From contig JAFQXN010000006.1 in NCBI GenBank assembly GCA_017406905.1, positions 62,001 through 126,000 of the forward strand: a stretch of DNA of 64,000 bases, read 5' to 3'. Below are positions 39,378 through 62,456 of this stretch, in pieces. Source of the stretch: Candidatus Saccharimonadota bacterium (GTDB lineage: Bacteria > Patescibacteriota > Saccharimonadia > Saccharimonadales > Saccharimonadaceae). How positions within the stretch are numbered: the stretch's first letter is position 1; each line of letters opens with the position of its first letter. The notes under the pieces were generated by a model, which was not told the DNA's origin, did not search any database, and worked only from the letters and a program-made list of their open reading frames with translations. The position numbers were made by a program, and so were the translations under genes.

Positions 39378-39468
39378 GCGCCTGTGGTGGAATTGGTAGA
39401 CACGCTACCTTGAGGTGGTAGTGGCCACATTTACGGCTGTGCTAGTTCGAGTCTAGTCAGGCGCACCA
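39378..39468 (+). tRNA. tRNA-Leu (anticodon GAG)
   Basis: Class II tRNA of 91 nt with encoded CCA. Acceptor GCGCCTG pairs with CAGGCGC; anticodon stem CTACC/GGTAG holds loop TTGAGGT; a long variable arm follows; T-loop TTCGAGT. Promoter -10 TATAAT is at 39364-39369. Confidence 0.95.
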
Positions 39469-39470
39469 TT
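39448..39470 (+). repeat. Direct repeat, copy 1 (tRNA-Leu 3' end)
   Basis: The last 21 bases of the tRNA plus TT. An identical 23-base copy lies at 39526-39548, as in attachment-site duplications. Confidence 0.8.
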
Positions 39471-39475
39471 GAAAC

Positions 39476-39502
39476 TCAGCACCTCCAACGGGTGTTTTTT
39501 TA
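39476..39502 (+). terminator. Terminator of tRNA-Leu
   Basis: CACCT-ccaac-GGGTG then TTTTTTT; a short stem of five pairs but a long T-run. Confidence 0.55.
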
Positions 39503-39525
39503 GTTGGGACTCGATGCTTCGCAAA

Positions 39526-39548
39526 CGAGTCTAGTCAGGCGCACCATT
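39526..39548 (+). repeat. Direct repeat, copy 2 (tRNA-Leu 3' end remnant)
   Basis: Identical to 39448-39470. Its upstream part forms GACTCG-atgcttcgcaaa-CGAGTC and does not restore a tRNA. A second terminator-like hairpin, AAGACG-attatgg-CGTCTT-ATTTTTT, follows at 39549-39575. Confidence 0.8.
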
Positions 39549-39555
39549 AAGACGA

Positions 39556-48188: not shown

Positions 48189-48630
48189 AATCCTCCCTTT
48201 CGTCTAGACGATTTATCCGCCTCACTCGGCGCTCTAATTCTACAAAATTCGTTTCCAAAAAAACTTTTATGATTTTTTTCATGCTTTCTTCGTCTACAAA
48301 ATGCGCTGATAAACACAGTATATTTGCGTCGTCATGTTCTCTTGCCAACTTAGCCGATTCTACACTTTCACAATGTGCCGCACGCACCCCCTTAAACCTA
48401 TTTGCCTGAATCGTCACACCATGCGCTGAATCGCAAATCAATATTCCTCGCGCGCCGGCATTTTCCCGTACTGCTTTTGCCACCGCAACTGCCGGATCGT
48501 TAAAATCATCTCCCTCAGAATATTCGTAAGCCCCCTCATCTATCACCTCGTATCCATTTTGCACCAAAAACTCTAACGCAATTCGTTTTTTCTCAAATCC
48601 CCGATAATCTGCTCCGACGAAAATCGCCAT
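48181..48630 (-). CDS. rpiB: Ribose-5-phosphate isomerase B-like protein
   Basis: 149 residues. GADYRGFEKKR at the N-terminus, ILICDSAHGVTIQANRFKGVRAAHC at the active-site Cys loop and HDDANILCLSA are RpiB blocks. The usual CGSGIG is CDSAHG. Converts ribose-5-P to ribulose-5-P. One-base overlap with gap. Confidence 0.88.
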   Translation of the reverse strand: MAIFVGADYRGFEKKRIALEFLVQNGYEVIDEGAYEYSEGDDFNDPAVAVAKAVRENAGARGILICDSAHGVTIQANRFKGVRAAHCESVESAKLAREHDDANILCLSAHFVDEESMKKIIKVFLETNFVELERRVRRINRLDEREDYA

Positions 48631-49634
48631 TAAACACCCTTCCCGAAATCAACCGTTAATTCTACTAGTCGGTTCGAATATCCCCATTCGTTATCGTACC
48701 AAGCCACAACTTTTACCATGTTACCGCCCACCACGTCAATCAACGGTAAATCTACGATACAGGAATGTGGGTCACCGATAAAATCAGTAGAAACCAACTC
48801 CTCTTCCGTGACATCAATGATGCCTTCATAGTATGGCTCTTTTGCCGCTTTCTTAAAAACTGCAATCAACTCCTCCTTAGTGGTCTCGCGTTTCAATATT
48901 GCCGTAATATCAGATAATGATACTACGGGCGTAGGTACTCTCACTGAAAGACCATTAAACTTACCAGCTAAACTCGGTATAGTCAACGCTGCCGCTTTGG
49001 AGGCCCCAGTAGAAGTCGGTACTATATTTTCTGCCGCACTCCTTGCTTCGCGTAAATCTTTCGCCGGCGCATCAAGGATTCTTTGTGAACCAGTATAAGA
49101 ATGCACAGTCGTCATCATCGCTTTCTCAATACCAAATTCGTCTTCCAAAACTTTCATAATCGGGGCGATACAGTTGGTGGTGCAGGAAGCATTAGAAATT
49201 ACCTCATCCGATTCGTCCAAGACATCTTCGTTTACGCCAATTACTACGGTCTTAGCCCCCTCACCCTTCGCCGGCGCCGAAATTACTACTTTCTTTGCGC
49301 CTGCGGTAATATGCGCTCTAGCATCCTCAGGCTTCGTGAAAAAACCAGTAGACTCAATCACTGCATCTACGCCTAATTTTTTCCACGGCAAATTCAAAGG
49401 ATCTTTTTCCGCAAACACCGGAATCTCACGCGAATTTATAATAATGGAATTTTCGCCTGCCGAGACTTTTTTCTCATAAGTGCCATAAGAAGAATCATGT
49501 TTCAAAAGGTGCGCTAAAGTCTTCGCATCTGTAATATCATTTATCGCTACTACCTGTACATCGCGACGTTCTAATAATATTTTCAGTGCATTCCGGCCAA
49601 TCCTTCCGAAGCCGTTTATCGCAACTTTTACCAT
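48630..49634 (-). CDS. gap: Glyceraldehyde-3-phosphate dehydrogenase, type I
   Basis: 334 residues. INGFGRIGRNALK dinucleotide fold, ASCTTNCIAP with catalytic Cys, and VAWYDNEWGYSNRLVEL. AGGAGG before ATG. Leads the gap-rpiB-rpe-pfkB-LOG operon, which joins pentose phosphates and lower glycolysis. Confidence 0.98.
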   Translation of the reverse strand: MVKVAINGFGRIGRNALKILLERRDVQVVAINDITDAKTLAHLLKHDSSYGTYEKKVSAGENSIIINSREIPVFAEKDPLNLPWKKLGVDAVIESTGFFTKPEDARAHITAGAKKVVISAPAKGEGAKTVVIGVNEDVLDESDEVISNASCTTNCIAPIMKVLEDEFGIEKAMMTTVHSYTGSQRILDAPAKDLREARSAAENIVPTSTGASKAAALTIPSLAGKFNGLSVRVPTPVVSLSDITAILKRETTKEELIAVFKKAAKEPYYEGIIDVTEEELVSTDFIGDPHSCIVDLPLIDVVGGNMVKVVAWYDNEWGYSNRLVELTVDFGKGV

Positions 49635-49693: not shown

Positions 49694-49888
49694 AAAAAGA
49701 AAATGGATAGCTGGACTCATTTTTTAGTAGTATAAAAATGATTTGAAATTTTAACACGTATATTCCTGACGGCGCCGAGAAAATTGCCCATTAGGGCAAT
49801 TTTTCCCGAACGCCCAGCGTATGACGTGCTTAAAATTTCAAGTCCCACTACTAGAAAAATGAGTCCAGCTAGGACCCATTTTCTTTTT
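49694..49888. mobile_element. MITE-like imperfect palindrome
   Basis: About 195 bp, symmetric around 49791. Both ends read AAAAAGAAAATGG from outside in. The arms share TAGCTGGACTCATTTTT, TAGTAGT, TTGAAATTTTAA and the central ATTGCCC/GGGCAAT. No protein gene is inside. It fills the whole rpsG-gap gap; its right end supplies the last bases of rpsG including the TAA. No clear target duplication is visible. The centre may also act as a terminator. Confidence 0.75.
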
Positions 49889-59709: not shown

Positions 59710-61725
59710 CTAATTTAATGTTGTAATTTGCTGATATTTCGTAATCCCAGTCATTAACTCCTTATATTTTACCATGTTTTCCGAGTCTTGTAAAAATTTC
59801 TTTACATCCGCTTGTGCCCGGTGTATCAATCTTGTATCGGACAGCGTGGCAATACGTAAGTCTAAAGCCCCGTGCTGCAATGCTCCATAAATCTCCCCTG
59901 GGCCACGGAGTTTCAGATCCACTTCCGCCAGATAAAACCCATCGGATGATTTCTCCAACTCGCGCAATCTCCTTGAAGGTGACAAATCTCCAGAGGTCAA
60001 AAGATAGCAAAATGAAGCCGCCGAGCCACGCCCCACGCGCCCCCTTAGCTGATGCAGTTGTGCCAGCCCATAACTCTCTGCATTTTCAATTATCATCAGA
60101 GTAGAATTTGGCACATCTACCCCCACTTCCACCACTGTCGTAGATACCAAAATCTTGATTTCGCCCCTGGCAAACCGCTCCATTATCATATCTTTTTCTA
60201 TTGCTTTCATCCGCCCGTGCAAAAACTCAATCTCTACTCCAGGGAAATCCCTCTTTAACTTCTCGCAACGCGACTTTACAGAAGTGGTCTCTGTACGCGG
60301 ATCGTCATCTATTGCCTTGCAAATCCAATAAGCCTGTTGGCCCATTGCTAGAGTCTCGCGGATTTTTGGGTATAGACATTCCCTAGTCTCTACCTCAGTC
60401 ATTATACTAGTCTTAATCGGTTGTCGCCCCTTAGGCAGCTCATTTAATACCGACACGTCTAAATCTCCAAATACCGTTAGCTGCAAACTCCTCGGTATAG
60501 GAGTAGCGGTCATAGCTAACAAATGAGGGGCCAGCCCTTCGGGTGATTTTAACAGTAGTTTTTGTCTTTGTCCTACACCAAATCTGTGTTGCTCATCTAT
60601 TATCACTAAGGCGAGGTTTGCGAAATTCGTATCATCGGTCAAAATCGCGTGCGTCCCTATTACTAAATTGATTTTCCCAGAGGCAATCTCTTTTTTAAGC
60701 TCAGCCTTTCCTTTAGTCGCGCCAGTCAAAAGCGCCACTTTCACCCCAAATTTTTCTAATTTTTCCCTCAAATTCTCATAATGCTGAGTAGCTAAAATTG
60801 CCGTAGGTGCAAGCAATGCCACCTGATTGCCACTTAATGCCACCCCGTATGCCGCCAGGGCTGCCACCATAGTTTTACCGGAACCCACATCACCTTGTAG
60901 TAGGCGATTCATTGGGGTATCCTTCTCCATATTCTGAAAAATTTCCCAGGCCGCCAGCCTCTGCGCCCCTGTTAACTTAAAAGGCAAACTCGCCACAAAT
61001 TCTCTGATTTTTGGTGCCGAAAACGGTATCCGCATGGCTCTCAGCTTCTCATTTTCTTGTCTATTTAATTTTGATGCCAAAATTAGCTCAAATAGCTCTT
61101 CGTATGCCAGGTAATCCCTCGCATTTTTGGCCGTTTCTAATGAATTTGGAAAATGCACATAAAACAAGGCGTCTCGCCTTGCCCCAGTCCTCACGGTAGG
61201 TAGTAAATCGGGTATTTCGGCAAATTTATCGCGTACATTTGACATCAAACGTCTGAAGTCATATGATTTAATTGCTCCGTGAGCCACGTAGACTGGGCTC
61301 AGGCCCGTAGAGGTATCAATCTCGGCTATTTCGGCGGCCGAAGGCGAAACTAGGCTATAACGCCCGTTTTTGAGCTCGTAATTACCAGTAAAATAGTATT
61401 CCTTCTCTGGTGAAAATTGTTTAATCCTGTAACTTTGGTTAAACCATATCACCCTCACCGCCCCTGTATCATCTCTTATTACCCCCTCGGTGATGGATAA
61501 ATTACGTCGCTGCGCCCTCCGCGTAGAAAGCGAATCTATTTTCCCCTTTATTACTACTTTTCCCGGCCTTAATTCTGCAATAGAGGTGGCAGCTTGATAA
61601 CTCTCATAATCTCTCGGTAAATTATAAAAAAAATCCCGCACCGTCCGAATCCCGTGTTTACGCAACAATTCAGCTCGCTTCGGCCCCACACCTTTCAAAG
61701 TCTCGACATCGCCAAGCCAATTCAT
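59710..61725 (-). CDS. recG: ATP-dependent DNA helicase RecG
   Basis: 671 residues. Restarts stalled forks and resolves junctions. GVGPKRAELLRKHGI and the OB wedge come first, then Walker A GDVGSGKT, DEQH box, MTATPIPRSL, and RGRVGRGSAASFCYLL with the C-terminal TRG motif. Overlaps trmD by ATGA. Confidence 0.97.
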   Translation of the reverse strand: MNWLGDVETLKGVGPKRAELLRKHGIRTVRDFFYNLPRDYESYQAATSIAELRPGKVVIKGKIDSLSTRRAQRRNLSITEGVIRDDTGAVRVIWFNQSYRIKQFSPEKEYYFTGNYELKNGRYSLVSPSAAEIAEIDTSTGLSPVYVAHGAIKSYDFRRLMSNVRDKFAEIPDLLPTVRTGARRDALFYVHFPNSLETAKNARDYLAYEELFELILASKLNRQENEKLRAMRIPFSAPKIREFVASLPFKLTGAQRLAAWEIFQNMEKDTPMNRLLQGDVGSGKTMVAALAAYGVALSGNQVALLAPTAILATQHYENLREKLEKFGVKVALLTGATKGKAELKKEIASGKINLVIGTHAILTDDTNFANLALVIIDEQHRFGVGQRQKLLLKSPEGLAPHLLAMTATPIPRSLQLTVFGDLDVSVLNELPKGRQPIKTSIMTEVETRECLYPKIRETLAMGQQAYWICKAIDDDPRTETTSVKSRCEKLKRDFPGVEIEFLHGRMKAIEKDMIMERFARGEIKILVSTTVVEVGVDVPNSTLMIIENAESYGLAQLHQLRGRVGRGSAASFCYLLTSGDLSPSRRLRELEKSSDGFYLAEVDLKLRGPGEIYGALQHGALDLRIATLSDTRLIHRAQADVKKFLQDSENMVKYKELMTGITKYQQITTLN

Positions 61726-62456
61726 GCTTTACCCGAATGTTCTTCGCGCCACTTCGCGATTTCTCCATGGTTCCCAGAGAGAAGTATGTCGGGCACTTTC
61801 ATCCCGCGAAAATCATAGGGCTTAGTGTATTGCGGATATTCCAAGTTGTCTCCATCTGAAAACGACTCAATCTCTGCCGATTGTGCGCCACCTAGTACTC
61901 CTGGTATTAACCTCACTACGCTATCTATAATAATCAGCGCCGGCAATTCCCCTCCAGTCAACACGTATTTCCCTAGCGAAATCTTATAATCCACGATAGA
62001 CAAAATCCGTTCGTCGTACCCCTCGTAGTGAGGGCATAGGATGATGTAATGTGTGGCAGGAGTGGCTGAAATGCCCTTTTCGAAGGGCCTAAGACTTGGG
62101 CGAGCGCCCCGGAGCGGCCCGAGAAAAGGGCATTCAGGCAGAACTCCTGCCATCCACTGCGCCATACTCTGATTCCACACCTCACCTACAGGGGTAGGCA
62201 AAATCACCTTCGCACTCGGATCCTTAGCTTTAACGGACTCAATAGCTGCAAACACCGGCTCACAACGTAACAACATTCCGTCACCACCTCCATAAGGCGT
62301 ATCATCTACGCTTCGGTGTGGCCCCAGTCCAAACTCACGTAAATCCACAAAATCAAACCCCGCCAGCCCTTTATCTACCGCCTTCCACATCATCGAAGTC
62401 TTTAGATATGGCTCTATTGCCTCCCGGAACAACGTAATAACAGTAAATTTAATCAT
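61722..62456 (-). CDS. trmD: tRNA (guanine(37)-N1)-methyltransferase with in-frame palindromic insertion
   Basis: 244 residues. VDDTPYGGGDGMLLR, EGYDERI, GKYVLTGGELPALIIIDSVVRLIPGVLG and the CPHYEG variant of the usual CGRYEG identify TrmD; Arg to His and Gly to Pro in that loop are unusual. About 30 residues between the PTPVGEVWNQSMAQWMA segment and HYIILC are encoded by the family B palindrome at 62054-62152, at the edge of the knot core. Leaderless promoter. Confidence 0.92.
   Translation of the reverse strand: MIKFTVITLFREAIEPYLKTSMMWKAVDKGLAGFDFVDLREFGLGPHRSVDDTPYGGGDGMLLRCEPVFAAIESVKAKDPSAKVILPTPVGEVWNQSMAQWMAGVLPECPFLGPLRGARPSLRPFEKGISATPATHYIILCPHYEGYDERILSIVDYKISLGKYVLTGGELPALIIIDSVVRLIPGVLGGAQSAEIESFSDGDNLEYPQYTKPYDFRGMKVPDILLSGNHGEIAKWREEHSGKA
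62054..62152. repeat. Family B palindromic element, copy 2 (inside trmD)
   Basis: About 99 bp. Outer arms TGGCAGGAGT and ACTCCTGCCA, then AAATGCCCTTTTC with GAAAAGGGCATT. The core in reverse complement (CGCTCCGGGGCGCTC) matches the degT copy (CGCTCCGGGCCGCTC). Confidence 0.8.

Follow-up and report, generated by a model that had tools for sequence, protein, structure and literature searches.

What kind of element is the long hairpin that lies between gap and rpsG in this genome, and how would such a sequence come to be there? The window, by which we mean the whole 64,000-nt stretch of Candidatus Saccharimonadota DNA analysed here, belongs to an assembly of 585 kb in 13 contigs. A first-pass annotation had read the hairpin as a MITE-like palindrome. 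Based on the copies that we collected from relatives, which we call family A, we consider it probable that this is a non-autonomous palindromic element of ~165–195 nt that resembles Rickettsia palindromic elements (RPEs) in the way it works. Its most important feature, in our view, is in-frame insertion in protein genes, which the first-pass annotation had no means of seeing. The features of the locus, together with a related insert further along the window, are as follows.

48630–49634, minus strand: gap (glyceraldehyde-3-phosphate dehydrogenase)
49694–49888, plus strand: whole palindromic element (family A), with the conserved fold on the plus strand
49694–49706, plus strand: left outer arm, 13 bp, pairing with 49876–49888; specific to this locus and absent from other copies
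49708–49724, plus strand: left middle arm TAGCTGGACTCATTTTT, pairing with 49855–49871
49732–49739, plus strand: conserved A-rich bulge (ATAAAAT type) facing a short CA/CC, from the 75-copy alignment
49740–49754, plus strand: left inner arm GATTTGAAATTTTAA, whose G.T wobble to CAAGTC is near-fixed
49756–49771, plus strand: core left strand ACGTATATTCCTGACG; no other stretch of the family is as conserved in the alignment
49780–49803, plus strand: apical stem-loop AAAATTGCCC-ATTA-GGGCAATTTT, differing in sequence among copies
49815–49827, plus strand: core right strand CAGCGTATGACGT, from the alignment
49830–49844, plus strand: right inner arm TTAAAATTTCAAGTC
49855–49871, plus strand: right middle arm AAAAATGAGTCCAGCTA
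49872–49877, plus strand: GGACCC end motif
49876–49888, plus strand: right outer arm, its T-rich end overlapping the rpsG stop codon
49887–50363, minus strand: rpsG (Pfam Ribosomal_S7)
62055–62152, minus strand: second hairpin insert, lacking the core, in the trmD ORF (61722–62456, minus strand)

The near-complete hairpin fills the gap–rpsG interval with its arms as first described, and contains no gene. Inverted-arm identity is 100% over the outer 13 nt, 100% over the middle 17 nt, and 93% over the inner 15 nt. Folded as single-stranded DNA, 221 nt reach −59.1 kcal/mol vs. −18.3 ± 3.3 for shuffles (z −12.4, 0/200), and the hairpin has the lowest folding z (−6.6) among 9222 windows from 513 kb of the same genome. 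The idea of two arms of ~97 bases is borne out by the matching stretches, but the structure is a stem with conserved bulges and an apical core rather than a simple two-arm palindrome. It is also strand-specific, as our covariance model scores this copy at 151.7 bits on the plus strand vs. 24.8 on the minus strand. A promoter-like site for gap, with an extended −10 TATAAT (49690–49661, minus strand), begins 4 nt outside the left end of the element, in agreement with the promoter placed there by the first-pass annotation. The claim that the element provides the rpsG stop codon is overstated. Two of the three stop bases do lie inside the palindrome, but relatives without the element have their stop at the same place. 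Elsewhere in the window (39448–39553), a 28-nt sequence occurs twice in direct orientation, at 93% identity and with a spacing of 78 nt.

The covariance model finds just one further copy in the 513 kb searched of the same genome, a full element at C8:37384–37569 (144.1 bits). Many further copies lie at unrelated sites in relatives of the same genus; by the model, the family is present in 63 of the 147 genus genomes, with 1–14 copies in each carrier. Order-wide sampling with the same model placed it in 1 of 122 genera, and the carriers recovered by a pattern scan of species genomes are nearly all ruminant-gut Ca. Saccharibacteria, with some from termite gut. In our searches, family A does not extend beyond a single Ca. 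Saccharibacteria genus from ruminant and termite guts. We considered spread to other phyla and rejected it: Mucilaginibacter, Treponema, and one further bin fit the short pattern and fail the covariance model. Carriage by phages or plasmids was likewise dropped, as viral, phage, and plasmid collections held no match. A search of the open literature, as distinct from subscription papers, for Saccharibacteria with palindromic or miniature inverted repeats returned no report of the family.

These results agree with the dispersed, non-autonomous, MITE-like behavior first proposed, in that the family is multi-copy, occupies unrelated sites, has empty orthologous sites in relatives, and carries no gene of its own. 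A single copy conserved across species would have pointed to a regulatory RNA; our searches found a multi-copy and patchy family. Part of the spread is vertical inheritance, since several sites (gap–rpsG, tsaD, xthA, and tatD) hold orthologous copies. The collected set comprises 136 distinct copies gathered from draft genomes through the core pattern, including two pattern matches (L115 and L128) later rejected by the covariance model.

Copies outside genes sit mostly at gene 3′ ends, as in the window. Among the 43 copies outside ORFs that run through the element, most are intergenic and many start directly past a stop codon, in the position of a terminator; from this position, such copies may act as terminators. 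A comparison of the gap–rpsG interval across 61 genus genomes, as the first-pass annotation had suggested for this site, found that the closest relatives by RpsG sequence lack the element and have an ordinary terminator hairpin instead. The same interval carries family A in G055. Several other long palindrome types occupy it in other species (L246, L252–L255, L264/L312, L250, and L266–L268); the one in L264 has the ATAAWATGATTTG/CAAGTCC motif in common with family A and a different core, and the one in L252 receives a weak covariance model score of 28.6 bits.

Most of the collected copies lie within protein genes. An ORF runs through the element in 88 of the 136 copies and extends 50 codons or more to either side of it, and the host genes include tsaD, xthA, tatD, and iscS. 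The host gene runs opposite to the element in 68 of these copies and in the same direction in 20. They use frame −2 in 58 cases, +1 in 20, −0 in 7, and −1 in 3. Outside such ORFs, frame −2 is stop-free in 17 of 43 copies and frame +1 in 4 of 43. Frame usage therefore tracks the frames that happen to be stop-free, as expected if insertion were random and only readable copies were kept. Judging from their open frames, the inserts within ORFs are likely translated. The clearest gain is in iscS, where a filled/empty pair (L168 vs. L209) differs by a clean 162-nt (54-codon) insertion. The flanks of this pair are ~80% identical, and it is the best one obtained when we looked for strain-level insertion polymorphism, which yielded no very recent case.

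Some protein loops appear to have been used repeatedly. In xthA, the loop flanked by GYSGTA and EGR measures 81–102 nt with weak structure in most copies read; native loops of 81–87 nt compare with 159–192 nt where a hairpin is present. Family A occupies this loop in five genomes, with its orientation split three to two, and other palindromes do so in two, with the frame open throughout. In tsaD, three separate insertion sites are in use, and some species have two inserts. This is also true of the present genome, whose TsaD carries family A at residues 125–176 and a second palindrome family at 248–272. The C8 copy adds ~50 residues that AlphaFold2 predicts to be disordered. Both inserts have pLDDT < 50 in this model, and the remainder is confident and agrees with TsaD structures already solved (TM, normalized to target length, up to 0.84). 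In trmD, the core-less hairpin at 62055–62152 has outer arms GTGGCTGAA...TTCAGGCA as in family A and a different interior, and trmD orthologues in relatives carry a full family A element at this site.

Two other palindrome families were seen in the same genome. The second family, with GGGACATGAAGACTTGGCCAGAGCGGCCCGGAGCGTGCCC or a variant as its core, has unrelated near-perfect arms at each site (L229:8795–8900, L233:1040–1150, L239:17105–17215, L240:3589–3690, and L228:9070–9155), and its copies are mostly in ORFs, the one in tsaD among them. A third, small family has a GGACTATAARCGAAGCGGCGACAGCCGA core (L235:6795–6872 and L242:3233–3305), with 20-bp arms that are perfect and unrelated in sequence.

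In 75 aligned copies of family A, the core strands ACGTATATTCCTGACG and CAGYGTATGACGT and the A-rich bulge are invariant or near-invariant and the arms vary. Compensatory change, with both sides altered and pairing kept, was found in 33 of 43 consensus pairs. Mismatches within the stem, scored alike for both types and with two near-fixed wobble positions left out, were G.T in 108 cases vs. A.C in 32 (p 8e-11). Beyond the stem, the counts were 68 and 103. The excess held when each orthologous site was counted once (101 vs. 30) and where the host gene runs opposite to the element (67 vs. 14); in a small sense-oriented set, it was non-significant (8 vs. 6). This bias within the stem indicates that the folded strand is the plus strand of the element, whatever the direction of the host gene. 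The folding molecule is more likely single-stranded DNA or a transcript of the element than host mRNA. One-sided deamination of cytosines, instead of selection, could also account for part of the G.T excess. Among orthologous copies, the core was conserved at 94% vs. 73% for the flanks, a difference that is too large, since the core pattern was itself used to collect the copies. In the less biased xthA sample, the core was kept in five of seven hairpin inserts.

The outer arms behave differently from the core, as they change from copy to copy and remain complementary within each copy. This complementarity extends past the element: flanks pair better than swapped flanks at a distance of 60 nt from the core (p 5e-35) and of 70 nt (p 1e-23), and the effect has decayed by 100 nt (p 1e-3). 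Moreover, xthA and other loci show both core orientations at a single site, which could reflect independent insertions into a tolerant loop. Template switching between inverted repeats is reported to homogenize arms and invert spacers (PMC8604942), and to create and maintain hairpins (PMC8794818). The arms of family A are probably kept palindromic in part by such switching during replication. We also considered insertion into palindromes that already existed and set it aside, as empty sites are barely more palindromic than nearby controls (20.0 vs. 18.2; p 0.015, with sites that are non-independent).

The first-pass annotation had pointed out that such elements usually depend on a transposase elsewhere. 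Of 80 genus genomes, 78 have none of the Y1 type (PF01797), among them every high-copy genome in the set, and neither of the two that do have one is a listed carrier. An origin as a REP/RAYT or IS200/IS605 derivative was therefore rejected, with Y1 so scarce in these 80 genomes. Among 12 high-copy genomes, 11 have reverse transcriptases. We rejected these as the mobilizer too, as those examined in this genome look like cassettes of diversity-generating retroelements and G269, with 14 copies, has none. The three reverse transcriptase genes of this genome (L297:363–2503, L230:13780–18373, and L234:2497–4523) each lie beside a similar accessory gene, and at least one adjoins repeated variable-type protein ends. 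In a genome of ~0.6 Mb, these loci are probably all diversity-generating retroelements.

A working account of the family can be put together from these observations. Copies would have spread to new sites within one Saccharibacteria genus, as dispersed copies and filled/empty sites indicate. At gene ends, they may survive by replacing the ordinary terminator hairpin, whose position they take. Inside genes, they could survive in loops that tolerate ~50 extra residues and in frames that the element leaves open, as the sequences suggest, provided that these are translated. Retention of the core and bulges on one strand may mean that the folded single strand is recognized by the mobilizing machinery or by another binding factor, a suggestion that we make because of the strand-specific wobble bias and the covariation. 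The arms would meanwhile drift and yet stay complementary, with complementarity creeping into the flanks in a manner that fits template switching within the hairpin.

Other explanations account for parts of this picture. A classical MITE, derived by deletion from an IS with a DDE transposase and mobilized in trans via terminal inverted repeats common to both, would also be small, palindromic, multi-copy, and at unrelated sites, and a few rve-type transposases (rve being the DDE family searched for) are present in three of 12 high-copy genomes (G005, G063, and G043). However, rve is absent from the other nine, including G122, G269, and G053 with 12–14 copies. The outer ends are not common to the copies: the 13-base ends proposed as shared termini are specific to the gap–rpsG locus, no IS with matching ends was found, and only an inner edge, GGGTGGC...CAGGACCC, is common to many copies, being the outer edge of those that are consensus-like. 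No target-site duplication was noticed in the flanks read, which include no young insertion and show inverted rather than direct similarity. Moreover, DDE ends acting as double strands need no long strand-specific fold with conserved bulges, and we regard a MITE as improbable. We are just as doubtful of a regulatory RNA or terminator selected for its function at each site (e.g., as a protein-bound mRNA hairpin) rather than a selfish insert. The conserved internal loops, strong covariation, strand-specific fold, orthologous copies held at the same sites across species, and preference of copies outside genes for 3′ ends would all suit such an RNA. Yet copies show no fixed position or sense orientation, occurring both ways round in many unrelated genes, and the folded strand is often opposite to the mRNA. 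Family A is missing from 84 of 147 genus genomes, and in other relatives the corresponding position is taken by simple terminators or different palindromes. None of the Rfam families passes its gathering threshold; the one match at E up to 1 scored 24.5 against a gathering score of 91 bits, so a known RNA family, riboswitch, or ribozyme was discarded.

It is also conceivable that no transposition took place, with palindromes made and rebuilt in place by template-switch errors of replication and a core shared through gene conversion. The arms are indeed locus-specific, near-perfect, and extending outward; both core orientations at one site are what spacer inversion predicts (PMC8604942), and template-switch events can create and maintain hairpins (PMC8794818). 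By contrast, unrelated genes could have a structured core of ~110 nt in common only if there were a source copy, iscS has gained 162 nt of new sequence, and conserved mismatched loops persist though template switching would tend to remove them. An origin wholly in place therefore seems very improbable to us. More speculatively, family A may represent a mobile class of folded single strands, recognized by their bulges in an attC-like manner and moved by an unrecognized Saccharibacteria enzyme, in which copies are selected to be readable as protein and arms are rewritten at each site, extending the palindrome into the host gene. We consider this rather unlikely as a whole.

To our knowledge, protein-coding palindromes are so far best known from Rickettsia, where they have been described as a unique and recurrent feature. 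The genomes of ultra-small Saccharibacteria are otherwise streamlined. If family A is an RPE-like element, as we favor, in-frame dispersed palindromes in Saccharibacteria would mean that coding palindromes have originated on more than one occasion in reduced genomes. With well over 100 copies, empty sites, and repeated insertions into the same protein loop, the comparative set allows tests of the way in which such palindromes move and of what keeps their arms perfect. There is also a consequence for annotation, in that extra loops of 40–60 residues in TsaD, XthA, TatD, TrmD, and other proteins from this genus would be inserts, not functional domains.

Compared by description, family A is similar in kind to RPEs, and we do not file it as an RPE family. 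RPEs are ~150-bp palindromes of several families, found in-frame in unrelated genes, according to PMC10969869 (citing Ogata 2000, 2002). Family A likewise is a long palindrome in dispersed copies with in-frame insertions in unrelated protein genes; several families share a genome, and there is no transposase of its own. It differs in belonging to another phylum, in sequence, in its conserved bulged core and strand-specific fold, and in its many copies at gene ends. It is also read in several frames and both orientations instead of as a single conserved peptide. Bacterial MITEs are similarly small, non-autonomous, and dispersed with inverted repeats (PMC10969869), but family A has no shared terminal repeats, no target duplication that we saw, and no parent IS that we found. 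REP/BIME sequences with their RAYT (TnpA-REP) are also folded single-strand palindromes scattered between genes; family A is much longer, lies in genes, and occurs in carriers that nearly all lack a Y1 transposase. The coding palindromes of Nematomorpha mitochondria resemble it in that long inverted repeats are kept in translated genes, but their arms encode conserved native protein and there is no shared dispersed element (PMC6649704). Finally, inverted repeats maintained by template switching offer, through arm homogenization and spacer inversion, an explanation for locus-specific complementary arms (PMC8604942 and PMC8794818). This is a mutational process rather than an element, however, and does not account for the core that the copies have in common.
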